DNA of 64,000 bases from Akebia trifoliata (Eukaryota > Streptophyta > Magnoliopsida > Ranunculales > Lardizabalaceae), in NCBI GenBank assembly GCA_017979445.1, contig CM030708.1, positions 30,599,613-30,663,612 of the forward strand, in the 5' to 3' direction. The number at the start of each line of letters is the position of its first letter. Positions within the stretch are counted from its first letter, which is position 1. This document shows, piece after piece, positions 8,579 through 63,759 of this stretch. The position numbers were made by a program, and so were the translations under genes. The notes beneath the pieces were generated by a model. The model ran no database searches and was not told the origin of the DNA. It saw nothing but the letters and a program-made list of their open reading frames with translations.

Positions 8579-8911
8579 ATGAGGTTCTTAAGTATGGTTT
8601 TGGCAACTGTAGTTGTTCTTCTAAGTGTCCAACCACACAAAGCTAGTAGAGTCATGAAGGAAGAAGAAGAACAATGGATGGAGAGAGGCCTTGTGTTAGG
8701 TTCTCTTCAAAGGGGTCCTGTCCCTCCTTCTGGACCTTCTGGGTGTACCTATATCCCGGGACGCGGTGGACCCGATTGCCCGATCAAGGTAAAGAAGCTT
8801 GCTGGCAATATTTTGGCTCATGTTAACGCTTACCCACATCTCGTTGTGCCGTTTGGAGTCGCTATCAATCGGAAATGTAGCTCACCATCAACCATAATGG
8901 AAATCCATTGA
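8579..8911 (+). CDS. SCREW/CTNIP-like secreted peptide precursor, divergent member
   Basis: Predicted 110-residue precursor of an apoplastic signalling peptide. Residues 1-22 form a signal peptide (hydrophobic MVLATVVVLL core, small residues before SRV). Residues 25-41 are an acidic propeptide with a run of Glu. The family box GSLQRGPVPPSGPSGC follows, then CTYIP at 56-60 and a second Cys at 67 (CX10C). The ATG at 8579 is chosen over the in-frame 8417 because it lies just after the TATA box and starts the signal peptide. The family is perceived by the receptor kinase HSL3/NUT (published work in Arabidopsis). It differs from the other copies: its tail after the second Cys is basic then hydrophobic, contains a third Cys (100), and lacks the PPFP ending. 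It sits outside the duplicated units and may be closest to the ancestral gene; that is inference. Confidence 0.75.
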   Translation: MRFLSMVLATVVVLLSVQPHKASRVMKEEEEQWMERGLVLGSLQRGPVPPSGPSGCTYIPGRGGPDCPIKVKKLAGNILAHVNAYPHLVVPFGVAINRKCSSPSTIMEIH

Positions 8912-9048
8912 AGTTAGAACTCTCAGGCATCAACTTGCCTAGAGAGTTTGAAAAGGAAGATATTACAAGTGAATCATGTCTTCAAGAACGTCAAAAACGA
9001 TCTTTCTCTCTCTTGTTTATGTTTTTTTTTTTTTTTTTCAAACATGTA

Positions 9049-9079
<31 letters not shown>

Positions 9080-10063
9080 TTAAATTTTTTGGAATTGTAA
9101 CTTCTTGTGACATGTACATATGTTTCAATCTTACTTCTAAGATCTTCGTGTAAGGTGTATATGAACTCACTCCCAGTAACGATTGAAAGACAGAATTGAA
9201 TGGTGGTGATATTTGAGATAGTGATTTTACGTTAAATTATTTTCATAAATAACAAGAAATATATATTTCAAACGTTTACGTAGAGAAAATTATGTAAAAG
9301 GTGAGAGGATTTGAGCTTAGCGATCTTTGCTTTCGTTTGTGTTGCCAAACTTCAATTCTTATTCGATGACTTGACAAGGATGGGTTGACAAAAATGGTTT
9401 TGTTGACTGAGTTGCTGTTTGAAGTTTGAACTGCTAACGTCATTGTATGTATACTTGTATATTGTATTTGACAGAGGAAGGTTGAGCGACGTAATTATGT
9501 CATAATCATAGTTTTAAAACTCATCGAGTTGACTCAATTTTAGACGAGTCAATTTGACTCGATAGAATTAATATTGAGGCAACTCTACATCTAGATTTAA
9601 TGGAACTAACTTGCTGAGTCAATCATTAACTCATTAGACATAAAGAAAAGTAGGCAAGTCACCTAAGCTTGAGCTGTATTAAGACCTCATTCTTAGGTGC
9701 TGCTTGTTAAACTGAAAACAATATGTGCTGAATAGTATTAAACACTGAAACTTATAAGAGTTGAATTTAAGTACTAAAAAAGTTGTTTGTTTAGATGCAG
9801 AATCATATTTGTTACATATTGTTGAAATTGGTAAATTATATTTTTTACTTTTACAATCATATTATACATTGTTTGCAGGTTTCAAATGCCTATTTCTTAT
9901 AAAATTAAAATACAATTCATTTTTAAACAATAAGTAATACTCAAAATTTCAATTTATATATAATAATTTTTATTTCTAAAAGCCTACAAATTTCAAATTA
10001 AAAACAATTTCAAAGGGTGAGATGAGATGTAATCTTGGGGGTAAACCACAAAAATTTGAGTCG
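8912..10063. other. 3' flank and intergenic DNA
   Basis: It contains a T14 tract (9023-9038), a (TTA)n microsatellite at about 9049-9080, and a diverged repeat arm starting TTTTAAAACTCATCGAGTTG near 9513 that resembles the inverted-repeat element at 18195. No further gene is supported. Confidence 0.5.
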
Positions 10064-10232
10064 TGCTGGGGTGACACAAGATTTACTATGATTCTCACAA
10101 TTCTGACGTGGATATGCATACATAACCATAGATGGTTTTTACTTGTATTGCGAGAAAACACATCTATGGTTATGTGCACATCCCATATCAGACTTGTGAG
10201 AATCACAATAAATACCCTGTGTCATTCCAGCA
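10064..10232. mobile_element. MITE, 169 bp
   Basis: Ends TGCTGGGGTGACACAAG and its reverse complement (TGTGTCATTCCAGCA on the right). The arms continue as GATTCTCACAATTCTGACGTGG against ACTTGTGAGAATCACAATAAA. Copies of exactly 169 bp occur at 14345 and 41298, so the ends are well defined; the superfamily is not. Confidence 0.75.
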
Positions 10233-10658
10233 TTTTCCCTAAAATTTTAATGAGGGAGTTTTGAAAAAGACAAAGGTGTATTAGTATTTTTACATAATAA
10301 ATGCTTGTCATTTACGTGATAAATGGTAAGAGGATTTAGTCTTTAAATTTAAGAATAACGATTTTCTGACACTCCTATGTTACATGTGCTAGAACCATAA
10401 ATTATTTCCTCATGATACACAATTGCATATATTTATGGGGATGTACAATTGTATATTTTGATGGAAAAATCAATGGTTCTAACCCACGCCACTTCAGGGG
10501 GTGTCAAAAAATTACAACTCTAAATTTAAATTTCTTATTTGCAATAAATAGTTTGGAAATCAACGCAAACAAACATTTATTACGTAAAAATCTAATATAC
10601 ACCTTTTTATTTTTTATTTTTTATTATAGTTAAAGACAAAATGGGTAGAGGGTAGTGA

Positions 10659-11279
10659 TAAGGGTCTCAATGGGTTAGTTCTGGTTCGGATCCTATAGAA
10701 CTTGGAACCATAACCATTATATTTAGTTCGGTTTTAGGTTTGGTTTCACCATAAATGGAATTAGAACTGCCAAAAATCAAGGGTACCCATCAGTTCCGGT
10801 TCTCAAGAATCGAATGAGAAATTTTTTTTTTCAAATCATTGTAAATCTTTTTTCCTTTCAAAAAATTAACATATTATCAACATCATCATTAACTTAGTCA
10901 TAGTTTGTTGTACCAAAAATACAGATTAATGATTTTTTTTCAAAACTAAAAATTTATCTTAGTTAAAAATAATAAATTTTTAGAAGATAACTCATTTTAA
11001 GCTCCAATTAATAATTTATATGAAAAATTGAAGAATTTTATATAACGTGCATTTATTTTAAAATAAAAATACCTTAAATCATCTATAGTATGAAAATAAA
11101 TGACAAATTAAATCAGTTCTGGGTACCCGCAAGTTCCCATTGAATAGAACCTAACAGTTTCGATTTCTATCGATTCAGTTCCATTTTAAATTTGGCTTTA
11201 ATCGATTCCAATAAAAAGGGAATCGGAACCAGGGTTTTCGATTTGGTTTCGGTTAAATGGGTAGCCATTGACATCCCTA
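10659..11279. mobile_element. hAT-like non-autonomous element, copy 1
   Basis: The left end TAAGGGTCTCAATGGGTTAG and the right end (reverse complement TAGGGATGTCAATGGCTACC) form imperfect terminal inverted repeats of the TAGGG-type. The interior is non-coding with GGTTCGG/CCGAACC-type words. Copies are at 15897-16510 and 49543-50166. It lies well upstream of each A-type gene, so it was present before the block was duplicated. Confidence 0.55.
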
Positions 11280-12051
11280 GTCAGTACTTCACACTACGTG
11301 AAAACTGAAAATTTTGAATAGAAAATATGACGGGCTATGATTGATGAATTTTAGAAATTGAATTTTGACAGCTCTTTTTTGTCAAAATTGTTGATGTTCC
11401 CTAGTTTTGACGGCTTAGAGCCTTCAAATTTCTCCCATCCTCTATTAATTCTATACCAAAATAATTGATGCCTTGATCCATCAAATTTTATTCAATTCGA
11501 CGGCTTTAGGCCATCGAATATGGGCTTTTTTGACGATGTATCACTGACTTCCTATAAGACTACCTCCAGCGTTATTTATGCAAAGAACAATCAATTTTCC
11601 TCAGGTCTAAAATCTCGTATCTTAGGGAGAAGTGTCGCAGAGTCCGTTTAGCATTTTTCTAGAAAGAATCTTCCAATCTTGGAAAAGATGATACCGGATG
11701 ATCTGGTATATTCCACGTGGCACTCATGATGGTGGGTCAACCTTTCAAGTTAAGACCTCAATGGTAGACCAACTAGGTCAAGCTTTCAGGCGACATTGAA
11801 AGAATGTCTGATTCTATTCCGAGGATCCCTCCTTTGATACTGTTGTTGAAACTTGAAATCTGTATGGTCTTTACTTTTAGTCTTGTTCAAAAATCACGAT
11901 TTACGTCTAACATGAAACTTCAAAGATTTTGCTGCCACACGAAAAATCTGGTTTTGAAGTTCAACAATGATTCTAAACAAAATATGTTGCACACTTCAAA
12001 TTAAACTTAAATAATAGTATTTAAAATGTTATTTATGGCCTTTAATTTTAA

Positions 12052-12136
12052 TGGGTACCCGTACCCTGGACTTAAACCCATGACCTTAGAGTTGCTTCGC
12101 AATTTGTCAGACCAACTGAGTGAGGTTCTAAGCCCG
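12052..12136 (-). mobile_element. tRNA-derived SINE-like fragment in the A promoter
   Basis: The reverse strand reads CTCACTCAGTTGGTCTGAC (A-box-like) and, after a spacer, GGTCATGGGTTTAAGTCC (B-box-like). It does not fold as a full tRNA. The same fragment recurs near 17322-17404 and 50976-51060 as part of the A block. Confidence 0.45.
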
Positions 12137-12271
12137 TTGTTTATGGCTATTTTGTAATGTTTTTCTCATTTAATTTTGATTTTCACGTTTAATTTTAAAA
12201 TTGAAATTTCAAATTATAATTTATTCAATTTTATATTGTTTAAACCACGATTTAGTAATAACTCACAAATC

Positions 12272-12280
12272 TATAAATAA
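12272..12280 (+). promoter_or_regulatory. TATA box of A-type gene, copy 1
   Basis: TATAAATAA lies 80-89 bases before the ATG at 12361. The identical core occurs at the same distance in copies 2 (17538) and 3 (51195). Confidence 0.65.
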
Positions 12281-12360
12281 GTCCCTTCACTCATCAGCTC
12301 TATCAGCAAAACATCGTTCATTTTAACGCTTTTATTATAGTACTTTTATTTCAACATCAA

Positions 12361-12639
12361 ATGGGATCTTGCAAAAGTAATATCTTCACAGTTTCAATCA
12401 TTTTCATGATCATTATGTCATATTTCCAAACCCTAGAAACATCGAGACCTTTCTCTATCGAGGGGGATTGGTGGTCGAAGAAGGATGATATTGTCATCCA
12501 ATCTCTCCAAAGGGGTCCTGTGACACCGCCCTTACCGTCATTTAATTTTGATTTTCATTTTAAAGCTGAATATTCAAGTTTTCCCATACTAGGAAAAGTT
12601 GAAATTCTAGAATGCTTTGGTCTTTGCCCCGTTTATTAG
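12361..12639 (+). pseudogene. A-type SCREW/CTNIP gene, 3' end replaced by the next promoter
   Basis: Residues 1-60 match the intact A-type precursors: signal peptide with SIIFMIIMSYF core, SRPF, GDWWSKKDDIVIQSLQRGPV. After LPS the sequence switches at about 12537-12541 into DNA that elsewhere lies upstream of the B-type genes (compare 39496 and 46637). The frame runs on for about 30 residues of promoter-derived sequence to a stop at 12637. The CX10C core is lost, so an active peptide is not expected. The junction shares only TCA with both parents, suggesting an illegitimate deletion that removed everything between an A gene and a B gene. Confidence 0.8.
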
Positions 12640-12708
12640 TTGTCAAACCATATGTATGTTGAAACTTATACTCTACGTTTGAACCATGACTTGGTAAAGA
12701 TCATAAAC

Positions 12709-12726
12709 ATATATATATATATATAC
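12709..12726 (+). promoter_or_regulatory. (TA)n TATA region of B-type gene, copy 1
   Basis: A TATATATATATATATA run ending in CC lies about 95 bases before the ATG. The run length varies among B copies (12709, 39667, 63413). Confidence 0.5.
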
Positions 12727-12819
12727 CTTCACTGCTTTATAGCATCAAACCACACTTCGTTCATCAAACTCCAAAACCTGAAATCCCGCACCAAAGAAGC
12801 CCTTTTTCCTCCTTTTGAA

Positions 12820-13053
12820 ATGGGTTCTTGCGTAAGAAATCTTTTCACAGTGTCAATCATTTTTGCGATTGTTGTGTCATGTTTCCAAACCCTAGAAGCA
12901 TCAAGATCTTTCCCTCTCCAAAGAGGTCCTGTGCCACCCTCATTACCATCACCGTGCCACCCCAATCACCCCATTGGTGATGGTAACTGCCCATCACCTA
13001 GACCCAAGAACTTTGCAGATCACCCCCATGTTGGATCACCACCCTTTCCCTAA
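12820..13053 (+). CDS. SCREW/CTNIP-like peptide precursor, B type, copy 1
   Basis: Predicted 77-residue secreted precursor. The signal peptide (SIIFAIVVSCFQTLEA) ends near residue 27. SRSFP then runs straight into LQRGPVPPSLPSPC, because 16 residues of acidic propeptide found in other members are missing in frame. The CX10C core is Cys46-Cys57, but the CTNIP residues are replaced by CHPNHP. The tail ends in GSPPFP at the stop. The ATG at 12820 rather than the in-frame 12640 is preferred: it begins the conserved MGSC signal peptide, and the upstream frame reads through the TATA region. Downstream AATAAA-type signals lie near 13333 and 13420. Copies at 39774 and 63526 differ by a few residues. 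Receptor binding cannot be judged from sequence. Confidence 0.72.
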   Translation: MGSCVRNLFTVSIIFAIVVSCFQTLEASRSFPLQRGPVPPSLPSPCHPNHPIGDGNCPSPRPKNFADHPHVGSPPFP

Positions 13054-14344
13054 ATCCTCTTCAACTCTAAGAATGCTTGATGTCTTAATCTTCTTTGTGG
13101 GATGAGTTCAGTCTCTTTCAAAAATAAACAAAAGTTCAATACCACTATTTAAATTGGTGGTCATTGGTCTTTTTTTATCATTAATTTAATGGGAACAACA
13201 CAATGGCTTCCTAAAATGGTTGCACCATTGTTGAGGACCCTTGCAATTGATGCTAAAATATTTGGTGTGTAATTATTTTTATAAGGGTATTTAATTACTT
13301 GAACTCATTTATAATGTATGAAGGTTCGGAATAAAGGTAGGGGTTCCTTCAACCCCATCCAAAAATAAGAGTACTATTGCTTTCTTGTATGGGGTTTATT
13401 TGTAAGATTCTTAATCAATAAATTTGGTGACTCTATTGAAATAGAGACTTGTAACTTTTTATTATTATTATTTTGCTTTGGCATGCCGCATGTACCAATC
13501 ACCCTAGCACATGTTCAACATTTAAATGTATTTACTTTTATGTGGAGGGGCATATAAATATTTGAAGGTATAATCAGGGGAGCAAACCCAGTCACCCTTA
13601 TCATCTCAACTAACCCATGATAGTAACCTAAACCTGAGATACAAGAATTATTAGAATTATACATCTCCTTAAAAGTTGAACGGACTAGAATAATTCTTAC
13701 AAATTATGTTAATGTGTGGTGTTGCTGACATGTGTTTATCCAACTAAAACATTTGCAATAGTATACTAGAGAATTTTACGTTAATTGAATTTATTCTTTC
13801 TTTCTTATTATTCTTGTATTGTGTAAAACTTTATCTAGAGAGATTCATGAAAATAAATTCCAAAGGCGGGGGAGAGCTTAATGTACTTTCCTGATGTTGT
13901 AGATTACTCCATTGATTTCTGGCCTAAACACCCAAAAATAGTTTAAAAACTCAAATTAATATAAATCATCTATGAAATAGTCCAATCTCTCGGGAAGGTA
14001 GAGAGATCATAGCTATTTATTCTAAAACTCACACGAAATGGTAATTTATCCTTTATTAAATGTAGGAAGGCGTTGTCCCTAGATAAATACATCAATAATT
14101 AAAAATTAATTTTAATATAAAATTAAAAATAATATTTTATTATTAATATTGTTTTTTTTTTATATTTCCCTCAGGATACACAATTGCACATCCCCATAAA
14201 ATAGATGCAATTGTGTATCCCAAAGAAATCTAGAATTCTTACACCTGCCACATCGGTGAGTTTTTGAGTTACCCTATCAAATTGAGTTAGAGAATCAGAG
14301 ATCTATTTTGTATTCATCATAAATATTGTTTAAATTATGAAAAA
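13054..14344. other. 3' flank of B-type gene
   Basis: Conserved with 40008-41297 and, diverged, with 36208-37330. It holds possible polyadenylation signals, a (TTA)n run near 13461, and at about 14170-14222 a palindrome (GATACACAATTGCA against TGCAATTGTGTATC). No gene is supported. Confidence 0.55.
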
Positions 14345-14513
14345 TGCTGAAATGACAAAATGTATTTACTGCGATTCTCACAAGTCTGACGTGAGATGTG
14401 CATATAACCATTGATGTGTTTCCTTGCGATACGAGTAAAAATCATCTATGATTATATATGCATCTCCAGGTCAAAATTGTGAGAATCACAGTAAATACTG
14501 TGTCTCCCAAGCA
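14345..14513. mobile_element. MITE, 169 bp
   Basis: Same family and length as 10064-10232. Ends TGCTGAAATGACA and (right) TGTGTCTCCCAAGCA, with inner arms GATTCTCACAAGTCTGACGT against AATTGTGAGAATCACAGTAAA. The paralogous position in B copy 2 (41298-41466) carries the same insertion. Confidence 0.75.
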
Positions 14514-14537
14514 CGACTCTTAAATTATTAAAACAAT

Positions 14538-14855
14538 AGTGTTGGAGTGACTCAAGATCGACCTCAATGCACACTTGGCTGACGTGGAAGTGTGTACAGA
14601 ATCATAGATGCTTTGCATTGAGATTTGAGTGAAAAGTATTATGGTTTTGTGCTCTCCTCCGCATCAGCAAAGTGTGAATTGAAGTCAATATAGCACCACT
14701 CTTTTTTGAAAATTGACTATTTTACAACGAATAATGTTTGTTTGACCTTCATTCACACTTTGCTGACGTGGAGGTGTGTACCCAACCATAGATACTTTGA
14801 CTCCACATCAGCAAAATGTGAACTGAAGTCAATCTTAAGGTCACTAACACTATTC
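14538..14855. mobile_element. Two related MITE-like inverted repeats
   Basis: One repeat spans about 14538-14701, with arms CACACTTGGCTGACGTGG and GCATCAGCAAAGTGTGAATT. The other spans about 14739-14855, with arms CACACTTTGCTGACGTGGAG and CTCCACATCAGCAAAATGTG. Both recur at 41491-41808 in B copy 2. Confidence 0.6.
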
Positions 14856-15354
14856 TTCTTTTATCAGAGAAACTCACAATTGATTGAAGCCTAATTTTAT
14901 AAGACTCGGCCATACTTTTCTAAATATTTGACGAGTCATCTTGAATATCAGATGAGTCAATGTCTCAATTTTCCTTCTTTTCAATAGTGTAAAATCAATC
15001 GACTTCAACTTCAACGTACCCTAAATTGTAAGAAATTGTTCAACTCACTAGGCAACTCGTCCATAGAGTTGAGTTGAGCATTCAACAGTAATGATGAAAT
15101 GCCACTTGTCCACACAACAATGGCCACTGTTGAAGAGAAGGGAAGGGAATGGATTTGCTGTTAACATTTGATAATGTTTATAAGCTGTTGAATGGGCAAG
15201 GTTTGTTATAAAATTTATTTAGACAGGAGTTTCGAAGGACATTCAAGTCCAATCAAAATTTTCTAGTTTTAAAACGAAGAGGTCAAGGACGAAACATGAG
15301 AGGGTATCATAGTCATGTGGGCTCAAGTTAACCCTTGACTTTTAAAGTCAGACT
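14856..15354. other. Spacer between unit 1 and unit 2
   Basis: Sequence from 14963 on has no counterpart after B copy 2. It contains GACGAGT/ACTCGTC-type words and no supported gene. Matching to unit 3 begins at about 15355, at TGTGATGTCACCTGAGGTC. Confidence 0.5.
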
Positions 15355-15896
15355 GTGATGTCACCTGAGGTCTACCCATGACTTATAAAGTCAATAGCAA
15401 TTATTTTATTTGAAAACTATTTTTGCAAAAATCTAAAAGGGTGCGCGAGGGACTTTGGGTTGGATAAATTAGGTGAATTTCCAATAGAAAAGTCTAAATG
15501 TGGCTTTGATGCAGCTTTAAGAGAAAATTTGAAACCTAAAATTAAAGAAGAAAGATAATACAAAATGAAAGTAATTAGAAAAATGCTGGAATGACACAAA
15601 TGGAGACACAAAAGTGAAAAAAAAAAAAATGATGTGGTGGCATGCATATAATCCTCATGATACACAATTGCATATATTTATGGGGATGTACAATTGTATA
15701 TTCTGATGGAAAAATCAATGGTTCTAACCCACGCCACTTCAGGGGGCGTCAAAAAATTACAACTCTAAATTTAAATTTCTTATTTGCAACAAATAGTTTG
15801 GAAATTAATGCAAACAAACATTTATTACGTAAAAGTCTAGTATACACCTTTTTATTTTTTATTATAGTTAAAGACAAAATGGGTAGAGGGTAGTGA

Positions 15897-16510
15897 TAGG
15901 GGTCTCAATGGGTTAGTTTTGGTTCGGATCCTATAGAACTTGGAACCATGACCATTATATTCAGTTCGGTTTCAGGTCTGGTTCCACCATAAATGGAATT
16001 AGAACTGCCAAACATCAAGGGTACCCATCAATTCTGGCCGGTTCTGAAGAATCGAATGAGAATTTTTTTTTTTCAAATCATTGTAAATATTTTTTCCTTT
16101 CAAAAAATTAACATATTATCAACATCATCATTAACTTAGTTATAGTTTGTTGTACCGAAAATACAGATTAATGATTTTTTTTCAAAATTAAAAATTTATC
16201 TTAGTTAAAAGTAATAAATTTTTAGAAGAGAACTCATTTTAAGTTCCAATTAATAATTTATAAGAAAAATTGAAGAATTTTATATAACGTGCATTTATTT
16301 TAAAATAAAAATACCTTAAATCATCTATAGTATGAAAATAAATGACAAATTAAATCAGTTCTGGGTACCCGCAAGTTCCCATTGAATAGAACCTGACAGT
16401 TTCGATTTCTATCGCTTCAGTTCCATTTTAAATTTGGCTTTAATCGATTCCAATAAAAAGGGAATCGGAACCAGGGTTTTCGGTTAAATGGGTATCCATT
16501 GACATCCCTA
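15897..16510. mobile_element. hAT-like non-autonomous element, copy 2
   Basis: Ends TAGGGGTCTCAATGGGTTAG and (reverse complement) TAGGGATGTCAATGGATACC, 614 bp, homologous to 10659-11279 and 49543-50166. Confidence 0.55.
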
Positions 16511-17536
16511 GTCAGTACTTCACACTACGTGAAAACTGAAAAATTTGAATAGAAAATTTGACGGGCCATAACCGATGAATTTTAGAAATTGAATTTCGAC
16601 AGCCCTTTTTTGTCAAAATTGTTGATGTTCCCTAGTTTTGACGGCTTAGAGCCTTCAAATTTCTCCCATCCTCTATTAATTCTATGGTTTCAGCCTGTTA
16701 AAAACAAAAAAAATTCTACACCAAAATAATTGATGCTTTGATCCATCAAATTTTATTCAATTCGACGGCTTTAGGCCATCGAATATGGGCTTTTTTTGAC
16801 GATGTATCACTGACTTCCTATAAGACTACCTCCAGCGTTATTTATGCAAAGAACAATCAATTTTCCTCAGGTCTAAAATCTCGTATCTCAGGGAGAAGTG
16901 TCGCAGAGTCCGTTTAGCATTTTTCTAGAAAGAATCTTCCAATCTTGGAAAAGATGATACCGGATGATCTGGTATATTCCACGTGCCACTCATGATGGTG
17001 GGTCAACCTTTCAAGTTAAGACCTCAATGGTAGACCAACTAGGTCAAGCTTTAAGGCGACATTGAAAGAATGTCTGATTCTATTCTGAGGATCCCTCCTT
17101 TGATACTGTTGTTGAAACTTGAAATTCGTATGGTCTTTACTTTTACGTCTTGTTCTAAAATCACGATTTACGTTTAACATGAGACTTCAAAGATTTTGCT
17201 GCCACACGAAAAATCTGGTTTTGAAATTCAACAATGATTCTAAACAAAATGTGTTGCACACTTCAAATTAAACTTAAATAATAGTATTTAAAATGTTATT
17301 TATGGCCTTTAATTTAATGGGTACCCGTACCCTGGACTTAAACCCATGACCTTAGAGTTGCTTTGCAATTTGTAAGACCAACTGAGTGAGGTTCTAAGCC
17401 CGTTGTTTATGGCTATTTTGTAATGTTTTCCTCATTTAATTTTGATTTTCACGTTTAATTTAAAAATTGAAATTTCAAATTATAATTTATACAATTTTAT
17501 ATTGTTTAAACCACGATTTAGTAATAACTCACAAAT
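16511..17536. other. Upstream region of A-type gene, copy 2
   Basis: Conserved among the three A blocks. A CACGTG core lies at 16981-16986, about 640 bases upstream of the ATG; copies 1 and 3 read CCACGTGG, copy 2 has CACGTGC. Similar text around a CACGTGG core also occurs near 23691, 30570 and 57035, suggesting older duplications of the same promoter region. Confidence 0.45.
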
Positions 17537-17537
17537 C

Positions 17538-17546
17538 TATAAATAA
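17538..17546 (+). promoter_or_regulatory. TATA box of A-type gene, copy 2
   Basis: TATAAATAA about 81-89 bases before the ATG at 17627, conserved in all three A copies. Confidence 0.65.
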
Positions 17547-17626
17547 GTCCCTTCACTCATCAGCTCTATCAGCAAAACATCTTTCATTTTAACGCTTTTA
17601 TTATATTACTTTTATTTCAACAACAA

Positions 17627-17941
17627 ATGGGTTTTTGCAAAAGTAATATCTTCACAGTTTCAATCATTTTCATGATCATTATGTCATATTTCCGAACCCT
17701 AGAAGCATCGAGACCTTTCTCTATTGAGGGGGATTGGTGGTCGAAGAAGGATGATATTGTCATTCAATCCCTCCAAAGGGGTCCTGTGACACCGTCCTTA
17801 CCCTCACCGTGCACCAACATACCCAACAATGGTGGTGGTCACTGCCCCTCACTTGGCTCAAAGAACTTTGCAGGGCACCCCCACATTGAATCACCACCCT
17901 TTCCCAACATGATCAATTTTGGCTCTATCACTGTAGCTTGA
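17627..17941 (+). CDS. SCREW/CTNIP peptide precursor, A type, copy 2
   Basis: Predicted 104-residue secreted precursor with the canonical motif. Residues 1-27 are the signal peptide (SIIFMIIMSYF core, cleavage likely before SRPF). Residues 28-49 are an acidic/tryptophan propeptide (EGDWWSKKDDIVIQS). LQRGPVTPSLPSP follows, then CTNIP at 62-66 and Cys73 (CX10C). The tail contains NFAGHPHIESPPFP and ends ITVA. The CTNIP core and the Cys pair match the phytocytokine family that signals through HSL3/NUT with SERK co-receptors. That role comes from published work on the family, not from this locus. The gene is one exon behind a TATA box. Copy 3 (51284) differs by Ser32 to Tyr. A PIP- or IDA-type peptide was considered, but those lack the two Cys. 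Confidence 0.82.
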   Translation: MGFCKSNIFTVSIIFMIIMSYFRTLEASRPFSIEGDWWSKKDDIVIQSLQRGPVTPSLPSPCTNIPNNGGGHCPSLGSKNFAGHPHIESPPFPNMINFGSITVA

Positions 17942-18802: not shown

Positions 18803-18972
18803 TCAATAGAGTTCCCGTGCCACCTCCTGGACCGTCACCATGCTCTTACATAAAACACAATGATGGTCCATGCCAATCACTAATTGGCTCAAAGAAATCT
18901 GTAGGTCAAGCCCATGTTGCATCATCGCCCTTTTCGGACACCGTTGTCAACTCTAGCACTGCTTGATTTCAT
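18803..18972 (+). pseudogene. 3' half of a C-type peptide gene, displaced fragment
   Basis: From 18808 it reads RVPVPPPGPSPCSYIKHNDG, then a second Cys and a tail ending DTVVNSSTA at the stop (18964-18966), without start, signal peptide or promoter. It matches the second peptide module of the C pseudogene (22488-22673). Unlike that copy it has CAA where the C pseudogene has a TAA stop, so it preserves an older, unbroken reading. Unit 3 has different sequence here (a small MITE at 52491), so the fragment was placed into unit 2. Confidence 0.75.
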
Positions 18973-20697: not shown

Positions 20698-22673
20698 ATG
20701 GGTTCTTGCAGAATAATTCCCTTTACAGTTTCAATCATTTTGGCGATCGTTATGTTATTTTTCCAACCACTTGTGTCTTCAAGGCCTTTTAGTTTCGATG
20801 GAGATCAATGGTTGATGAATAATGAAATTTTTTTTATTTTTTATTTTTTTATTTTTTTATTGATAAACTGGGGTTAAAGGGACCCCACCCTAAAACACTA
20901 CTAGCGAGTGTAGGTACAGATTAAGTCTTCCTCAACAATTCTCAAAAGTTCAAGAGGAACATTACATATATCTTCAATAACGAAAAAACCCTCTGAATAA
21001 GTACTCAATTTTGCTAAATAATCCGTTGTCCGATTTGTTTCTCTCCACAAAAAATCAAACTAATAACTCACAAAATTTTGGCTCTGTTCTGCAATTTCCA
21101 GCAGCATTTCCTCATATTTCCATGATGAAACGATTTCATTCTTTATGCATTTAATAGAATATAACGAATCGGAGGAAATCAGAATACGATTCAGTCCCCT
21201 CACCTTTGTATATCTCATAACTTCTAAAATTGCTTGCAACTCAATTTGGATAATGTCATCTGCAGAAATATTGCTCCAGCCTACAAAAAGTAATGTAGCA
21301 TCGCTATTTCTGTCAATAAACCCCAAACTCGAGCCTTGCACTGATCGAGCCCCATTAGTATTAATTTTCACCACATCCACCTCTGGTTTCGATCAAGAAA
21401 TGAGCTTTAAATCTGAATTAACAATGGAGTAACAACAACTCCAATTGTTTAAAATCTGCCCATATACACGACTAAATCTTTCCTCAATCAATAAGCCATC
21501 AAACCAATTTTGTATCACCTCTCTAATATGTTTCAAAACAACTTCCTTTGGGGAATTAATTTCTACAAACACTCTCTGATTTCTTTTCTTCCAACAGTAG
21601 TAAATCACTATACAAAAAGAAGTATAAAGTAATTGTTTTATCTGTTTGCATTAAAATCTCACACTCTTAATCACCTGAATTTCCGCCTCTATTGAGTCCA
21701 CTCCTACTCGAAAAATTTCAAACTTCTTCAAACACTGAATTCAGATCCATCTAGTATATGGACATCGAAAGAACAAATGATCATTTGTCTCTTGATGGCT
21801 ATAACACAAATAGCATCGAGACACCCACTTGAATCCCCTCTTATTTATATTTTCCACTGTAAAAAGCCTCTTCGGAACCGCTAACCATGCAATAAAAGAA
21901 AATTTTGGAATACAATTACTCCAAATAATTTTCTTCCAACCAATAGACTCTTGCCTTTCACATAGCGCCTCGTGAGCTGATTTAGACGAGAATTGGCCAT
22001 TTGACGTAAGTTTCCAAATTGTTCTATCCCTCATCAACATCTTAGGGATTGGTCTCTCTGAAATGATATCAATAATTGTTTGCATGCGATCATTATATGG
22101 TTTTGGAAACACCCACCTTCCGTCCACAATAAAATTATGAAGAACTACATTTAAGTCACTATCGAACTGATTTATAACTCGGTTGCCAAATCTGGAAATA
22201 ATGCTCTCTTCTTGTAACCATGGATCCTTCCATATGTACATGTCTTCCCCATTTCCAATTAAAAATCGGACGTGCTTTCTAACAAATTCTCTCTCATTTA
22301 AAATACCTCGCCATGCCCAAGACACAATATTTGGGGGTTGCCACCTTCTAGACCATCGGAGTGCACCAATATTCCCAAAAGTGGTGGTGGTAACTGTCCA
22401 TCACTTAATTCAAAATATTTTGCCAGCTTCAAACCTTTCGCCACGTCATCAAAATCTTTATTAGATGGAGATATATTGCTGAAATAGGATGATATTGAGA
22501 TTCAATCCCTCAATGGAGTTCCCGTGCCACCTCCAGGACCGTCACCATGCTCTTACATAAAACACAATGATGGTCCCTGCTAATCACTAATTGGCTCAAA
22601 GAAATCTGTAGGTCAAGCCCATGTTGCATCATCGCCCTTTTCGGACACCGTTGTCGACTCTAGCACTGCTTGA
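20698..22673 (+). pseudogene. C-type SCREW/CTNIP gene split by a LINE, unit 2
   Basis: The 5' part (20698-20827) encodes a signal peptide of the family type (MGSC, SIILAIVMLFFQPLVSS, then SRPFSFDGDQWLM). It is interrupted by a 1.5-kb antisense LINE. The 3' part resumes at 22338 with LPPSRPSECTNIPKSGGGNC, a perfect CTNIP CX10C core, and runs to an in-frame TAG at 22485. In the same frame, with no gap, follow DDIEIQSL, a second peptide module PVPPPGPSPCSYI with a CX9C core, a TAA at 22581, and a tail ending in STA at 22673. The ancestral gene may therefore have been a two-module precursor, or a fusion of two neighbours. About 40 bases of propeptide/QRGP coding sequence are missing at the insertion. 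Shared with unit 3. Confidence 0.75.
20828..22332 (-). mobile_element. 5'-truncated L1-type LINE
   Basis: Minus-strand frames show, 5' to 3': a zf-RVT-like reverse-transcriptase C-terminal region (22325-21741; WRGILNEREFVRKHVRF, IGNGEDMYIWKDPWL, and Cys-rich CYLCYSHQETNDHLFF-type residues); a linker with IYYCWKKRNQRVF; and an RNase H-like domain (21380-21060; KINTNGARS, IQIELQAILEVMRY, ISSDS). The element ends in an A-rich tail, seen as T-rich DNA at 20828-20860. Frames are broken, so it is inactive. Antisense insertion, 5' truncation and A tail fit target-primed reverse transcription. No target duplication is visible. Confidence 0.85.
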
Positions 22674-24716: not shown

Positions 24717-24987
24717 AAGAGAACTGCTATTGGCACACCAACTTTTAGTTATTACACTCACTACAGTAAAATAGGGCTATAGCGACGGTCGTGACCGTCG
24801 CTGTAAGTCCAAAATACCGTCGCAAATGCATCTAGCAACAGCCAATGGGGCCGTCGGTAGTCGTCGCTAATAGTCCCATCGCTAAATGTTATATCGACGG
24901 CCAACACAGAAACGTCGTTAGGTATATGACTTATAGCGACAGCCGCTATTGGCCGTCGCTATAGGGTAGTCTTTTTAAAAAAAAAAT

Positions 24988-41466: not shown

Positions 41467-41490
41467 CGACTCTTAAAATATTAAAACAAT

Positions 41491-45078: not shown

Positions 45079-45110
<32 letters not shown>

Positions 45111-45111
45111 A

Positions 45112-51283: not shown

Positions 51284-51598
51284 ATGGGTTTTTGCAAAAG
51301 TAATATCTTCACAGTTTCAATCATTTTCATGATCATTATGTCATATTTCCGAACCCTAGAAGCATCGAGACCTTTCTATATTGAGGGGGATTGGTGGTCG
51401 AAGAAGGATGATATTGTCATTCAATCCCTCCAAAGGGGTCCTGTGACACCGTCCTTACCCTCACCGTGCACCAACATACCCAACAACGGTGGTGGTCACT
51501 GCCCCTCACTTGGCTCAAAGAACTTTGCAGGGCACCCCCACATTGAATCACCACCCTTTCCCAACATGATCAATTTTGGCTCTATCACTGTAGCTTGA
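51284..51598 (+). CDS. SCREW/CTNIP peptide precursor, A type, copy 3
   Basis: 104 residues, identical to the gene at 17627 except Tyr for Ser at position 32 in the propeptide (SRPFYIEGDWW). The mature region with CTNIP (62-66), Cys73 and the PPFP-containing tail is unchanged, so purifying selection on the peptide or a recent duplication is possible. Family role as for 17627: apoplastic phytocytokine precursor. Intact TATA box and single exon. Confidence 0.82.
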   Translation: MGFCKSNIFTVSIIFMIIMSYFRTLEASRPFYIEGDWWSKKDDIVIQSLQRGPVTPSLPSPCTNIPNNGGGHCPSLGSKNFAGHPHIESPPFPNMINFGSITVA

Positions 51599-54399: not shown

Positions 54400-56265
54400 A
54401 TGGGTTCTTGCAGAAGAATTCCCTTTACAGTTTCAATCATTTTGACGATCGTTATGTTATTTTTCCAACCACTTGTGTCTTCAAGGCCTTTTGGTTTCAA
54501 TGGAGATCGATGGTTGATGAATAATGAAGTTTTTATTTTATTTTATTATTATTGATAAATTGGGGTTAAAGGGACCCCACCCTAAAACACTACTAGCGAG
54601 TGTAGGTACAGATTAAGTCTTCCTCAACAATTCTCAAAAGTTCATGAGAAACATTACATATATCTTCAATAACGAAAAAACCCTCTGAATAAGTATTCAT
54701 TTTTGCTAAATAATCCGTTGCCCGATTTGTTTCTCTCCACAAAAAATCAAACTAATAACTCACAAAATTTTGGCTCTGTTATGCAATTTCCAGCAGCATT
54801 TCCTCATATTTCCATGATGAAACGATTTCATTCTTTATGCATTTAATAGAATATAATGAATCGGAGGAAATCAGAATACGATTCAGTCCCCTCGCCTTTG
54901 TATATCTCATAGCTTCTAAAATTACTTGCAACTCAATTTGGATAATGTCATCTGTAGAAATATTGCTCCAGCCTACAAAAAGTAATGTAGCATTGCTATT
55001 TCTGCCAATAAACCCCAAACCCGAGCCTTGCACTGATCGAGCTCCATTAGTATTAATTTTCACCACATCCACCTCTGGTTTCGATCAAGAAATGAGCTTT
55101 AAATTTGAATTAACAATGGAGTAACAACAACTCCAATTGTTTAAAATCTGCCCATATACATGACTAAATATTTCCTCAATTGATAAGCTATCAAACCGAT
55201 TTTGTATCACCTCTCCAATCTGTTTCAAAACAACTTCCTTTGGGGAATTAATTTCTGCAAACACTCTCAGATTTCTTTCCTTCCAACAGTAGTAAATCAC
55301 TACACAAAAAGAAGTATAAAGTAATTGTTTTATCTGTTTGCATTAAAATCTCACACTCTTAATCACCTGAATTACCGCCTCAATTGAGTCCACTTCTACT
55401 TGAAAAATTGCAAACTTCTTCAAACACTGAATTCAGATCCATCTAGTATATGGACATCGAAAGAACAAATGATCATTTGTCTCTTGATGGCTATAACACA
55501 AATAACATCGAGACACCCATTTGAATCCCCTCTTATTTAGATTTTCCACTGTAGAAAGCCTCTTCGGAACCGCTAACCATGCAATAAAAGAAAATCTTGA
55601 AATACAATTACTCTAAATAATTTTCTTCCAACCAATTGACTCTTGCCTTTCACATAGCGCCTCATGAGCTGATTTAGACGAGAATTGGCCATTTGATGTA
55701 AGTTTCCAAATTGTTCTATCCCTCATCAACATCTTAGGGATTGGTCTCTCTGAAATGATATCAATAATTGTTTGCATGTGATCATTATATGGTTTTAGAA
55801 ACACCCACCTTCTGTCCACAATAAAATTACGAAGAACTGCATTTAAGTCACTATCGAACTGATTTATAACTCGGTTGCCAAATCTGGAAATAATGCTCTC
55901 TTCTTGTAACCATGGATCCTTCCATATGTACGTGTCTTCCCCATTTCCAATTAAAAATCGGACGTGCTTTCTAACAAATTCTCTCTCATTTAAAATACCT
56001 CGCCATGCCCAAGACACAATATTTGGGGGTTGCCACCTTCTAGACCATCGGAGTGCACCAATATACCCAAAAGTGGTGGTGGTAACTGTCCATCACTTAA
56101 TTCAAAATATTTTGCCAGCTTCAAACCTTTTGCCACGTCATCAAAATCTTTATTAGATGGAGATATATTGCTGAAATAGGATGATATTGAGATTCAATCC
56201 CTCAATAGAGTTCCCGTGCCACCTCCTGGACCGTCACCATGCTCTTACATAAAACCCAATGATGG
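54400..56265 (+). pseudogene. C-type SCREW/CTNIP gene split by a LINE, unit 3
   Basis: Same structure as 20698-22673. The signal peptide and SRPFGFNGDRWLM end in LINE sequence with a stop at 54553. The 3' part restarts at 56030 (LPPSRPSECTNIPKSGGGNC), reaches the same in-frame TAG (56177), and continues into the second module (VPVPPPGPSPCSYIKPNDG). It breaks off at about 56262, where a deletion joins it to sequence equivalent to 22909. The TAG is shared by both units, so that stop predates the duplication. Confidence 0.75.
54530..56024 (-). mobile_element. 5'-truncated L1-type LINE, unit 3 copy
   Basis: Paralogous copy of 20828-22332 at the same site and orientation, with zf-RVT-like and RNase H-like frames on the minus strand and a shorter T-rich (A-tail) end. 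An extra stop near 55613 shortens the zf-RVT frame. Confidence 0.85.
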
Positions 56266-58020
56266 TGTTTGAAGGTTCCACGGTAGAACTTTTAGGAATT
56301 TTATAAGGATTGTATTGCTAAATTTCTTTGATATGGTTCATTTGTAAGCTTCTTCCACCCCTTTTGCAATCAAATTAACATATAGGAAATGATGCGCAAA
56401 CTTATCCCTAATTGATTGGTTGGGCTTAGACCCTTAGCTCAATTGATTTGACATGTTGCAAAGAAACTGAGGTCATACGTTCAAGTCCAAGCTCTTGTCC
56501 ATAGAAAAAAAAAAAACAAAGAAAATAAGATTCCCGGTTGATATGGGTTTATAGACCAAAAAAGGATATTAGACGCAAAACCTGATTGATCACCTACTAA
56601 TCACTAGCCACTGAATTGAATTCCCGGTGTAGAAGAGAAAAAAATGTGCATTTTGTTACAAAAGCAGAAAAAAAAATGCATTTTAGTCTCCCCATAACAA
56701 CATGACTTGATGTGGAGCAGAAAATTTTGAGAACTTCAACAAAATAAAATTTAAAAACAGTTACTGTTGGATTTATATTGGGCTCTCAACGAATTACATC
56801 ATGGAGCTAGGATCTTGTCTAGGCGGGGGCATGGATTTTATTTTTCACTGTTGTTATCTGTCGCAATAGAATATGAATCTTAATATTTTTTAAAAACTGA
56901 AAATCTGTCACACATCAATTCAACAGAGTACATTATGAACCTAACATGGGATGAAAAATGTTAGTTGTAGAATTTTTATTCCCTTATCGTCAAACAAGAC
57001 CACCTAAGTATGGACATGGACCCAAAACATTCCACGTGGAACTCATGGACGTAGGGAATAAGTCTTGACCATGAGAGTAAAGGAACATGCAAGCCTCAAC
57101 CCATGGGTTTAGGCTCCCCATATCAACATGACCATTGGGATGTTAGAGATTCCTAAGAAATATGTATCCCTAAGAAATTGTGTGTTCATACTTAGAACAT
57201 CGAAATCGATTGCTAGAGAACCTGTATTTTTCCTTCAAATCTTAATAGTCATGTTGAAGGAGACTAGAAAAGTTTCAAGTGTCAAGCTTTATAACGAGAA
57301 ATGAAGAAGAAGAGGCAGTTGTTGGTAACAAATAGGAAGCGGATCCTCTGTAGCGAATGTTTCGTCTAGCTCTTTGTAACATTGTTTGTAAGTTTGAAAG
57401 AGCACAACATCAGTGATAATAAAATCCTACTCTCAAAAAATTGGGAGTTTAGTAGCCGTTCATTTTTAAAGACGTGGATCTATCAAAAATAACTTATTAT
57501 TTTATTTTATTTTATAAAAAAAATTAGATCTAAACAATAATCACATGTTATTTTTTATATTTTTTATATTATGGCTCTCTCATCCATGGAGAGAGTGCTA
57601 TAGGGAACTACAAGAAACTTTCTTTACAGAGAAACCACTAGTCCTTCATAACAAATAACAGTGTTAAGTTGTTGATTCAACATCATTTTGCCACATGTCA
57701 AAACATTAGTCGAGACCATGAAACATTAGTCTTGAACTAAACTAGCGGAGAGACTTTGAAGCCTGGTATAATTGACTTAAAATTTTCTCGAGTTGACCTA
57801 GAAATTAGTTAAGTTGACTGAACTCAAATGACATTGAAGTCGAATAAAGTTTTTTAAGTTTTAAAACGTAGCTATCGAGGGGGAAACATGGACTCACAAA
57901 TTTGGTATGATTAAGATTTGATCAAGATTTACTTTCAAAAGGTGTACTCCTTTCTTTACATTTCGCTTTTTTTTTCCTTTTTCTAGAAAATTTGAAGCAT
58001 TCTCCACCTACCTTAAATGA
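56266..58020. other. Spacer, unit 3
   Basis: Matches 22909-24716 with a few small deletions. Includes the SINE-like repeat near 56416-56520 and the CCACGTGG near 57033. Confidence 0.5.
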
Positions 58021-59633: not shown

Positions 59634-60325
59634 TTCCATAGACACATAAAGCTACAATGTTTTTGTCTTATATAGTTAAAAAGATTCAGAATATGCTGAT
59701 TTTTTTGTGAGGACGCTCTATGGTGAGGGGATCATCCTTGTAAAAAACCATCCCATTCCAAAACTTCTAACCCCATCAAAACTGATTTATAAAAATTGGA
59801 CGGTCTAAAATTTTTCAACTTGTAAACATGGGGCTAGAAGTTTCATAATGGGATGATTTTTAGCAAAGATGATCTCCTCACCATAGGGATCACCCTCACA
59901 AAAATAACCTATTCCAAACATTTTTACCCATATAAGATAAAACACGTTGTAGTTTTATGAGTAGCTATATATGGATTAGGATCCGTATACACATAAAGCT
60001 ACTCATAAAACTACAACGTGTTTTGTCTTATATGGGCAAAAATGTTTGGAATGGGCTGAATTTTTGTGAGGGTGATCCCTATGGTGAGGAGATCATCCTT
60101 GCCAAAAATCATCCCTTTATGAAACTTTAAGCCCCATGTTTACAAGTTGAAAATTTTTAGATCGTCCAATTTTTGTAAATCACTTTTGATGGGGTTGGAA
60201 GTTTTGGAATGGAATGATTTTTTGCAAGGATGATTCCCTCACCACAAAAAATCAGCCCATTCCAAACCTTTTTAACCATATAAGACAAAAACGTTGTAGC
60301 TTTATGTGTCTATGGAACCGACCCT
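59634..60325. mobile_element. Abutting foldback elements, unit 3
   Basis: Counterpart of 32108-34121 without the solo LTR. The ATTCC at 60233-60237 is the unoccupied target. Confidence 0.7.
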
Positions 60326-60336
60326 ATATATATATG

Positions 60337-60859
60337 GATCCCGTTCAATGCCTAACTTTTTGGCAAAACATTTTTCAAAACATGAGTTAGAAGTTTTGGA
60401 ATGGGTTGATTTTTGGTGAGGATGATCTCTACGATGAGGAGATCATCATCACAAAATATCAGCCCATTCCAAAACTTTTAACCCCATAAAAAATAGTTTA
60501 CAAAAAATGGACGGTCCACGATTTTTCAACTTGTAAACATGGGTTAGAAGTTTTGGAATGAGCTGATTTTTGGTAAGAATGATCTCCTCATCGTAGATAT
60601 CATCTTCACCAAAAATCAGCCCATTCCAAAACTTCTAACCCCATCAAAAATGGTTTACAAAAAATTGAAGGTCCACGATTTTTCAACTTGTAAACTGGAG
60701 CTAGAAGTTTTGGAATGAGCTGATTATTGGTGAGGATGATCTCCTCATCGTAGAGATCATCCTCATAAAAAATCAGCCCATTCTAAAACTTCTAAACCAT
60801 GTTTTGAAAAAAAATTAGCCAAAATAATTGTCAAAATGTTTGTTGCTGAACGGGACCCA
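60337..60859. mobile_element. Composite foldback element
   Basis: Starts GATCCCGTTCAATGCCTAAC (the 34131 subfamily) and ends GTTGCTGAACGGGACCC (the 35542 subfamily). It has three instead of two inner hairpins, so two neighbouring elements have recombined with loss of the DNA between them. Confidence 0.65.
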
Positions 60860-60870
60860 TATATATATAT

Positions 60871-61612
60871 GGGTCAAGTTCAAGGGACATATGAGAAAAC
60901 ATATGTAAAAACAATGTAACATTAATAAATTTCAAAATATGGGTTAGAAGTTTTGGATTGAGCTGATTTTTTGTGAGGATGATCTCTATGATGGGAGGAT
61001 CTTCTGAAAAAGAAAATCAGTCCAATCTGAAACTTCTAACCCCATTAAAAGTGATTTAGAATGTGGACCGTCGTTTTTTATCAGTAATTTGTAAATCACT
61101 TTTGATGAATTTAGAAGTTTCTGATTGAGCTGATTTTTTGTGAAGATGATCTTCTCATCATAGTGACCATCCTCACAAAAAATCAGCTCAATCCAAAACC
61201 TCTAACCCATATTTTGAAAAAATTATTGTTTTTTCATATGTTTTTACATATGGCCCTTGAACCGCCCCATACATATATATATGGGGGCGGTTCAAGGGCC
61301 ATATGTAAAAACATATGAAAAAACAATGGTTTTTCAAAATATAGGTTAGAAGTTTCACATTGGACTGATTTTTTTTTCGGATGATCTTCCCATCATAGAG
61401 ATCATCCTCACAAAAAATCAGCTAATCAAAAACTTCTAACCCATATTTTGAAATTTTATTAATGTTACATTGTTTTTACATATGTTTTCTCATATGTCCC
61501 TTGAACCTGATTTTTGGTGAGGATGATCTTTACGGTGAGGAGATCATCATCACCAAAAATCAGCCCATTCCAAAACTTCTAACCCCATAAAAAATGATTT
61601 ACAAAAAATGAT
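60871..61612. mobile_element. Foldback elements of the third subfamily
   Basis: One complete element spans about 60871-61266 (GGGTCAAGTTCAAGGGACAT to ATGGCCCTTGAACCGCCCC). A second, in opposite sense, runs from about 61285 (GGGGCGGTTCAAGGGCCATA) to 61510. A partial piece of another subfamily then runs to 61612, where a deletion joins sequence equivalent to 37838. The outer arms carry CATATGAAAAAACAATG-type words. Confidence 0.65.
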
Positions 61613-62524: not shown

Positions 62525-62777
62525 AACATTACAAGGAAGTGCTTTCCCTTGGAGAATTAAAAACTTGGTGGTAAGGAGTTTACATTTGCTGAAGGACATT
62601 CAATTGGAAGTTAAGCAAGTGTTTAGAGAGGCAAATCATGTGGTAGCTGCCTTAGCTTCCTTTGCTTCAAACTCTAAGTGTAACGAGCCTTTTTCTAATG
62701 TTGAGAGTCTTCTTTCTATAGCTCGACAAGCTTTTATGGGTGATCGGATGAATCTTTCATCTCCTAGACATTTGTAA
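62525..62777 (+). pseudogene. LINE RNase H C-terminal fragment, unit 3
   Basis: Same encoded sequence as 38771-39023 (VKQVFREANHVVAALASFAS, ending HL). Confidence 0.7.
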
Positions 62778-62978
62778 AATTGTAAATTTTATTTTCTATT
62801 AAGGAAATTAAGTTCACCTGATTAGCAAAACCAAAACTTAGAATCATGTTCCTTAATTGGAAACTTGAAGGGTTCAAAAGTCAAGAATGATCATATCTAA
62901 AATATGTTTATGTTGCGCACAAATTTTTTGTTTTGGAAAAATAGTTTTCAAACTTAAATAAAAGTATAAAATGGTGAT

Positions 62979-63191
62979 AATCTGACCACCCCATGTGGCA
63001 CACTCAATCGACTTTCCTGATGTGACAAGTTCTGGAACCGTAGTTCTGTACACGTCGAGATACAAAATTGTACTTCCCCATAAAAATGTGAATCACGAGG
63101 GAACCATATATCCCAGGGCATACAATTCTATGGTTCCGAACTTATCACGTCAGGAGAGTCAATTCAGTGTGCCATGTGGGGTAGTCAGATT
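62979..63191. mobile_element. 213-bp MITE upstream of B-type gene, copy 3
   Basis: Same length, ends and position relative to the gene as 39222-39434. Confidence 0.82.
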
Positions 63192-63412
63192 ATTACGACT
63201 CAATAGTATAATTAGAATGTTAACTAAACTTGTAATTTTGTAAGCCTTTTTCTCATTTAATTTTGATTTTCATTTTAAAGCTGAATATTCAAGTTTTCCC
63301 ATACGAGGAAAAGTTGAAATTCTAGAATGCTTTGGTCTTTGCCAGTTGTCAAGCCATATGTATGTTCAAACTTATATTATACGTTTGAACCATGACTTGG
63401 TAAAGATCATAA

Positions 63413-63431
63413 ACATATATATATATATATA
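63413..63431 (+). promoter_or_regulatory. (TA)n TATA region of B-type gene, copy 3
   Basis: TATATATATATATATATA run about 95 bases before the ATG, the longest of the three B copies. Confidence 0.5.
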
Positions 63432-63525
63432 CCTTCACTGCTTTATAGCATCAAACCACACTTCGTTCATCAAACTCCAAAACCTGAAATCCCGCACCAA
63501 AGAGGCCCTTTTTCCTCCTTTTGAA

Positions 63526-63759
63526 ATGGGTTCTTGCATAAGAAATCTTTTCACAGTGTCAATCATTTTTGCGATTGTTGTGTCATGTTTCCAAACCCTA
63601 GAAGCATCAAGATCTTTCCCTCTCCAAAGAGATCCTGTGCCACCCTCAGTACCATCACCGTGCCACCCCAAACACCCCAGTGGTGATGGTAGCTGCCCAT
63701 CACCTAGACCCAAGAACTTTGCAGATCACCCCCATGTTGGATCACCACCCTTTCCCTAA
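63526..63759 (+). CDS. SCREW/CTNIP-like peptide precursor, B type, copy 3
   Basis: 77 residues with the B-type layout (signal peptide, no acidic propeptide, Cys46-Cys57, PPFP end). It is the most altered B copy. The RGP box reads LQRDPVPPSVPSPC, with Gly35 replaced by Asp where nearly all other members have Gly, and the core is CHPKHPSGDGSC. Either it is drifting or its specificity has changed. The MGSC start is chosen over the upstream in-frame 63346 for the same reason as in copy 1. Confidence 0.68.
   Translation: MGSCIRNLFTVSIIFAIVVSCFQTLEASRSFPLQRDPVPPSVPSPCHPKHPSGDGSCPSPRPKNFADHPHVGSPPFP

Follow-up and report, generated by a model that had tools for sequence, protein, structure and literature searches.

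The CTNIP peptides of Arabidopsis, for which we take SCREW to be the alternative name, are encoded by five genes (CTNIP1-5, comprising AT1G06135, AT1G06137, AT2G31335, AT2G31345 and a fifth), and the system was defined in that species as five ligands with one receptor, a passage of the defining paper deferring the matter of ligand-receptor co-evolution. Passages of PMC9191895 identify the receptor as HSL3/NUT (AT5G25930), state that both cysteines of the peptide are needed for HSL3 binding and co-receptor recruitment, locate the bioactive CTNIP4 48-70 at the C-terminus of its precursor, and describe the residues of the CTNIP-like motif as 'relatively conserved'. In sections of two reviews, the outputs of Arabidopsis CTNIP/SCREW signalling are given as counteracted stomatal closure and immune modulation. 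Here we describe a 64,000-nt stretch of chromosome 5 of Akebia trifoliata (C5:30599613-30663612), referred to below as the window, which very probably constitutes the first half of a tandem array of CTNIP/SCREW genes, shaped by duplication, the peptides of which would be bound by HSL3-type receptors.

The family and its receptor are already known; what is new, within the literature searched, is the size of the expansion, a branch with a shifted cysteine and a parallel multiplication of HSL3, and none of the papers listed by that search joins Akebia with CTNIP or HSL3. Larger CTNIP families may occur in other species, the copy numbers per species being contained in a figure and the supplements of PMC9191895. 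A comparable case is the SCOOP/MIK2 system of Brassicales, likewise a phytocytokine family multiplied in one lineage, with 50 PROSCOOPs in Arabidopsis according to a passage of PMC11331138; it differs in having another peptide, with an SxS motif, and another receptor.

Precursor loci of the window and their family

Thirteen CTNIP/SCREW-related loci, all on the + strand, were detected in the window by a six-frame regular expression and by tblastn, at the places where an earlier, sequence-only reading had put them. As that reading also held, seven retain an open reading frame (ORF), encoding precursors of 77-110 residues: 8579 (8579-8911, 110 residues), 12820 (12820-13053, 77 residues), 17627 (17627-17941, 104 residues), 39774 (39774-40007, 77 residues), 46927 (46927-47214, 95 residues), 51284 (51284-51598, 104 residues) and 63526 (63526-63759, 77 residues). 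The other six (12361, 18832, 20698/22338/22428, 35922, 42449 and 54400/56030) are broken, so the description of the loci as 'mostly intact' applies to seven of 13, and their being 'mostly unannotatable by length filters' is half true, as four of the seven would fall to a cut at 100 residues.

All seven open copies have the predicted C-X10-C core, which fits a 9-11 spacing filter under either way of counting, and all are hydrophobic at the N terminus, with a best mean hydropathy over 12 residues of 2.87-2.98. With Arabidopsis CTNIPs they have in common the short precursor, signal peptide, QRGPV-type box, two cysteines and, in the canonical copies, the CTNIP motif itself. A T[NY]IP core is retained in three of the seven, namely 8579, 17627, which combines a canonical CTNIP core with an NFAGH...PPFP...INFG tail, and 51284, a duplicate of 17627 differing by one residue. 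Unlike the Arabidopsis peptides, the remaining four have a rewritten loop, so 'often CTNIP' was generous: the core reads HPNHP in 12820, where the motif is gone and both cysteines are retained, and in 39774; HPKHP in 63526; and SHIH in 46927, the core of which is CSHIHANRHGSC. A frameshift origin of the HPNHP core was ruled out, as the codons align without gaps. The MGSC start ascribed to the signal peptides is exact in four of the seven, being MGFC in 17627 and 51284 and different again in 8579, which is also the only open copy without the PPFP tail. In 63526 the box reads QRDPV, replacing a glycine invariant among six rows of alignment A1.

Chance origin of these loci is excluded. The motif expression, composed after the copies had been seen, matched seven times in the window and never in 100 first-order Markov resamplings; a hidden Markov model (HMM) of 31 outside proteins, themselves found via window queries, placed 11 of 1516 window ORFs above the HMMER inclusion line and none from the resamplings, the window being scored with filters off and the resamplings with default filters.

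The assignment of these loci to CTNIP/SCREW, made by recognition of the motif in the sequence-only reading, is borne out by structures, protein matches and phylogeny. That reading had proposed searching with the 8579 and 17627 precursors; the best solved-structure matches of both are peptides from entries that also contain Arabidopsis HSL3 (PDB 9w1s and 9wum), chain A of each entry being labelled 'AT5G25930 protein'. Chain C of 9w1s was matched by 8579 (E 3.3e-5), 17627 (E 2.5e-4) and 46927 (E 0.056); a literature search found no paper naming either entry. Among 35 candidate proteins, 8579 matched 30 at E<=1, the best at E 1.4e-40, and 17627 alone matched one at this threshold, whilst profile A2 matched 359 of 6051 candidates, the best 120 of which were listed; the named members among the protein matches listed are plants, and a search of viral contigs gave no match. 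The core expression fits 131 of the 149 outside proteins, the cysteines being separated by 10 residues in 115 of them, by nine in 12 and by 11 in four; 14 of the remaining 18 have a cysteine pair with 8-14 residues between, and four do not. The HMM of outside proteins recovers four of the seven open copies at inclusion level. Pfam gave no family for the precursors, the copy used being silent also on proteins tagged PF27884, a family that appears for the protein matches only in precomputed annotation columns.

In a tree of 47 rows, consisting of the seven window precursors and 40 sequences chosen from the 149 outside proteins, 8579 is placed in a deep CTYIP clade (96/96), and the remaining six window copies group together (100/98) inside the CTNIP branch. 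8579 is thus of the same type as the CTYIP precursors of other eudicots, such as Thalictrum P0002, Aquilegia AQUCO_01700662 and Vitis P0003, although P0002 has two cores per precursor and 8579 has one. Two-core precursors therefore occur in the family, open in P0002 and broken at 22338-22640 of the window.

Some further features of the precursors were observed. A tail NFAGH...(A)PPxFP...(N)FG is found repeatedly among eudicots, both parts being present in 35 of the 131 proteins matched by the expression (examples are window positions 17843-17938, P0036, P0044, P0058 and P0075); the solved Arabidopsis peptides lack it. P0114 and P0115, one of them from Carpinus, have repeated QRGPV...PSAPNP boxes and no cysteine pair, and on this pattern are possible cysteine-free relatives. 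All seven intact copies, and 12361 as well, have TATA matches at 82-110 bases before the start; the window averages 3.0 such matches per kb, and some copies have AT-repeat stretches. G-boxes, palindromes counted on both strands, number four for 8579, two each for 12361, 17627, 20698, 51284 and 54400, and none for 12820, 35922, 39774, 46927 and 63526 (window mean 0.35/kb), the duplicates not being independent; this promoter pattern is only a lead.

Two precursor arrays and multiplied HSL3-type genes

A search of the 652.5 Mb assembly with 17627, which may miss CTYIP-type genes elsewhere, returned 62 matches at E<=1, with arrays on C5 and C16; 57 were read, three of them pieces inside the window, the remainder being five weak matches with E 0.16-0.43 (C1, C4, C7 twice and C16). 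They include 37 open two-cysteine precursors, compared with five genes in Arabidopsis: 14 in the chromosome 5 array, 21 in the chromosome 16 array, and one copy apiece at C4:7484922 and C5:6587476. A weak match on C7, where 13 residues separate the cysteines, is not counted. One of the 14, at 30725335, has lost its usual start codon. The chromosome 5 array extends over 30.608-30.731 Mb, about 123 kb, of which the window covers about half, and the other over 25.825-26.027 Mb (C16:25825316-26027434); the local expansion with pseudogenes and subtypes proposed from the window is hence larger than claimed. The Arabidopsis genes likewise include two pairs with neighbouring locus numbers. Unlike Arabidopsis CTNIP4, 29 of 33 amplified-type array copies have at least 15 residues beyond the second cysteine.

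Each array starts with a single CTYIP-clade gene, 8579 at the 5' edge on chromosome 5, followed by the amplified type on the same strand, and both are flanked on the same side by a related gene, an SSXT domain being found on its chromosome 16 copy. With the whole-genome duplication suggested for Akebia by a peak near 0.2 in transversions at fourfold degenerate sites (4DTv; a passage of PMC7848005, on subsp. australis), this single flanking gene and a gene order mirrored on one side make duplicated segments the best interpretation of the two arrays. In a tree that includes the array members, the 13 chromosome 5 copies and the 20 chromosome 16 copies each form a clade of their own (96/87 and 97/90), which suggests that the two arrays expanded independently; Amborella switches side between this tree and the family tree. 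In Aquilegia, the consecutive numbers of AQUCO_01700661, of CTNIP type, and AQUCO_01700662, of CTYIP type, suggest adjacency, these two being known from their names and protein sequences.

The genome was also searched with the Arabidopsis HSL3 ectodomain, the sequence of which was confirmed against the AT5G25930 PDB chain; 71 of 1388 candidates were scored, making the counts lower bounds. At least eight placed loci have a full open ectodomain, six on C12 (1.828-1.962 Mb) and two on C1, and at least three more pieces are incomplete or disrupted; unlike HSL3/NUT in Arabidopsis, the genes lie in tandem, spanning C12:1827897-1961570 and C1:5444655-5519273. The eight loci have 52-54% identity to AtHSL3 and the top group as a whole 51-54%, the next full-length matches having 41%. 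The PDB bit scores of one member, L061, were 653 for HSL3, 452 for GSO1, 443 for HSL1 and 411 for RLK5, which we take to be HAE, and nine Akebia rows cluster with AtHSL3 in a single clade (100/100) in a 13-row tree that includes three other Akebia kinases. By PDB score and tree, the chromosome 12 and 1 loci are the closest relatives of HSL3, nearer to it than to HAE, HSL1 or HSL2. The kinase region is in frame in three of the eight placed loci (C12_1917887, C12_1959735 and C1_5517444) and in an ectodomain copy on the unplaced contig C447, these frames stopping just past GYIAP, apparently as at an intron; it is broken in C1_5444655 and partial in C12_1827897. In a further difference from Arabidopsis, no kinase match was found within 1.25-1.4 kb after C12_1836924, 1845889 and 1860871, the frames of which end after a stretch that is hydrophobic by eye.

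Direct observation in Akebia covers the reading frames and their homology, the structure of the arrays and the occurrence of HSL3 relatives; the steps from precursor to receptor are drawn from Arabidopsis by analogy. The precursors of 77-110 residues would enter the secretory pathway and be trimmed to a two-cysteine peptide, the cysteine pair closing a small loop; the mature peptide would dock on the ectodomain of an HSL3-type receptor kinase and recruit a BAK1/SERK co-receptor. Any role of the Akebia peptides in immunity or stomatal control, as the sequence-only reading envisaged, would likewise be carried over from Arabidopsis. The arrays could have arisen from an ancestral adjacent pair of one CTYIP and one CTNIP gene, doubled by whole-genome or segmental duplication, after which, on both copies, the CTYIP gene would have remained single and unequal exchange, unit by unit, would have multiplied the CTNIP gene. 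The outcome would be a chromosome 5 branch with C-X10-C and partly rewritten loops and a chromosome 16 branch with the first cysteine shifted and C-X8-C, HSL3 having likewise multiplied in tandem on chromosomes 12 and 1. Where the loop has been rewritten, the copies may represent novel ligands, antagonists or relics. Rather more doubtful is a private many-to-many hormone code, in which the two ligand arrays would co-evolve with the tandem HSL3 genes, some receptor copies, being kinase-less, would serve as decoys, and some rewritten ligands would either activate other receptor copies or bind as antagonists that fail to recruit the co-receptor. With both sides multiplied, Akebia offers dozens of natural ligand variants and several receptor variants, and the pairing of natural ligands with natural receptors makes specificity directly testable; the genome is in this respect a natural test of hormone-receptor co-evolution.

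Loop replacement and competing explanations

Cysteine spacing is uniform within each array, at 10 residues in 14 of 14 open copies on chromosome 5 and eight in 20 of 20 of the amplified type on chromosome 16, where, unlike in Arabidopsis CTNIPs, the first cysteine stands one residue further N-terminal (e.g. SCDTNIPGKHC); an open frame at 25886086 that lacks a signal peptide and has lost the first cysteine stands as an exception beside this. The shifted cysteine is present in none of the 149 outside proteins, a set found with chromosome 5-type queries. The idea that C-X8-C is unknown outside Akebia was dropped, since P0134 has eight residues between its cysteines, with the first at the usual place. 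The Arabidopsis peptide 9w1s_C has nine. A passage of PMC9191895 gives '9-11 amino acid spacing' as a candidate filter; the C-X8-C branch would be discarded if this means the residues between and kept if it means the difference in position, and a strict spacing filter may therefore lose the relocated branch.

Replacement appears concentrated in the loop between the cysteines, which is suggestive of the rapid evolution that the sequence-only reading proposed. By parsimony counts of non-synonymous (N) and synonymous (S) changes, the chromosome 16 core has N38 S5 against N278 S142 elsewhere (Fisher p 0.003), and the chromosome 5 core N24 S5 against N13 S14 in the box (p 0.010), which is itself constrained (w 0.37, p 0.010); core against box over both arrays gives p 0.0002, and the counts outside the core may be too high owing to gapped tails. 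The loop proline is retained in 122 of 131 outside cores and lost in seven of 13 chromosome 5-array copies. In the SGP box, glycine is replaced by leucine or valine in the HPNHP, SHIH and 17627 types of chromosome 5 (nine of 13 copies), neither residue occurring at this position in the 131 outside boxes matched by the expression. The N and S counts and the lost proline favour positive selection on the loop, yielding ligands with new receptor specificity or antagonists, which we hold as a tentative possibility, somewhat more doubtful than not. It is countered by w not significantly exceeding 1 on its own (p 0.10 and 0.82), by the chromosome 5 core against everything else (p 0.13), by tree-independent pairs (p 0.16 and 0.09; 0.047 combined), and by the chromosome 5 change falling mainly on the 46927/HPNHP branch; positive selection is hence not established.

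Several observations weigh against the interpretation of the window as part of a duplicated CTNIP/SCREW array. 12820 matched no PDB chain at E<=10, and PDB chains of fewer than 20 residues lay outside the search library, so that short IDA-type peptides, which are 12-14 residues long, could not compete. The three HPNHP/HPKHP copies reach only E 0.011-0.16 with the HMM of outside proteins, so their membership appears to follow from kinship to 46927 and 17627. Neither tree includes an Arabidopsis precursor. These three, 12820, 39774 and 63526, show six non-synonymous changes and no synonymous one, which fits an absence of constraint. The two CTYIP edge genes are 53% identical and not sisters in the array tree, that of chromosome 5 grouping with Stephania, Thalictrum and Aquilegia (99/83) and that of chromosome 16 branching deeper, which counts against the pair having simply been duplicated recently. 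Lastly, the HSL3 ectodomain on the unplaced contig C447, probably an allele, is 99.5% identical to a C12 copy.

This last point bears on whether the copy number has been inflated by an assembly in which two haplotypes were placed end to end, as does the occurrence of several chromosome 5 subtypes as near-identical pairs. Such an artefact seems improbable, however: open copies of the chromosome 5 array other than 51284 and 8579 are only 53-73% identical to 17627, so several subtypes would remain in any case, the HPNHP type occurs five times, and unit content differs between the units. Far less credible still is a placing of the genes in a different family of proline-rich peptides, such as IDA/IDL, PIP/PIPL or CEP, despite the resemblance of the RGPVPPSGPS box to the PSGP core that, in a passage of PMC11331138, is common to CLE, CTNIP, PIP, CEP and IDA; the two cysteines at a spacing of 10 in every intact window copy, the top PDB matches to peptides co-deposited with HSL3, and the letters CTNIP in 17627 and 51284 all speak for the CTNIP/SCREW assignment. 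More serious, if still unlikely, is that the array is largely decaying, most copies, especially those with a rewritten loop, being neutral leftovers of unit duplication and only 8579 and 17627/51284 mattering. The six broken loci, the amplification of a dead gene with its unit (20698, 54400 and, beyond the window, 30709889), the substitutions of the HPNHP trio and the altered glycine of 63526 would all fit this, whereas the uniform spacing in both arrays (two cysteines having been a criterion for counting), the constrained chromosome 5 box and the 37 open frames genome-wide, in our judgement many for neutral decay, speak against it.

Repeat units, broken loci and mobile elements

Self-BLAST confirmed the three repeated units that had been proposed: a shortened unit 1 (10407-14963), unit 2 (15354-41916) and unit 3 (from 48996, extending past the window end at 64000). 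The left part of unit 1 corresponds to 15652-17806 and the right part to 39496-41916, with the joint at 12538 inside a 17627-type gene. Kimura two-parameter distances between units are 1.6-4.0%, with 9% between the stretches at 36066 and 39870 and 13% between those at 46591 and 39445; this spread, from 1.6 to 13%, implies that duplication occurred more than once.

The broken loci, all on the + strand, are of several kinds. By self-BLAST, 12361-12540 is the 5' half of a 17627-type gene truncated at the recombination junction (12538-12540). The gene with its signal-peptide half at 20698-20829 has its core half at 22338-22640, where a CTNIP core is followed by a second core with a stop, a two-core relic; between the halves lies a retroelement remnant on the - strand (21060-22400), probably lacking long terminal repeats (zf-RVT E 4.4e-21, RVT_3 E 1.7e-5). 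Matching ORFs and self-BLAST show the same broken gene, with the same remnant inside, duplicated at 54400-56266. The others are an orphan core fragment, CSYIKHNDGPC, with no signal peptide in frame (18832-18933); a frameshifted copy with extra bases within the core (35922-36204); and a signal-peptide fragment (42449-42514) of the MGSSIGYLF subtype, which is open further along chromosome 5.

Unit 2 also contains Rad51-type pieces on the - strand at 26573-27589 (Pfam Rad51 E 5.4e-7 for 26981-27295), which presumably resemble the meiotic recombinase DMC1 and for which self-BLAST found no counterpart in unit 3. Beside them, at 27847-28314, is a fragment that we take to be P450-like, with no Pfam match. 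CYP82, DMC1 and GIF are assumed gene names, Pfam backing only Rad51 and SSXT. Between units 2 and 3 lie fragments of a Copia-type retrotransposon (47842-48912), of which 47842-48651 was judged by eye, without a Pfam match, and 48580-48912 has a Pfam match to gag. Many copies of an inverted-repeat element of about 260-400 bases, some in tandem, are found at 24986-25379, 34000-35870, 44700-45500 and 59650-61440; these are possibly miniature inverted-repeat transposable elements.

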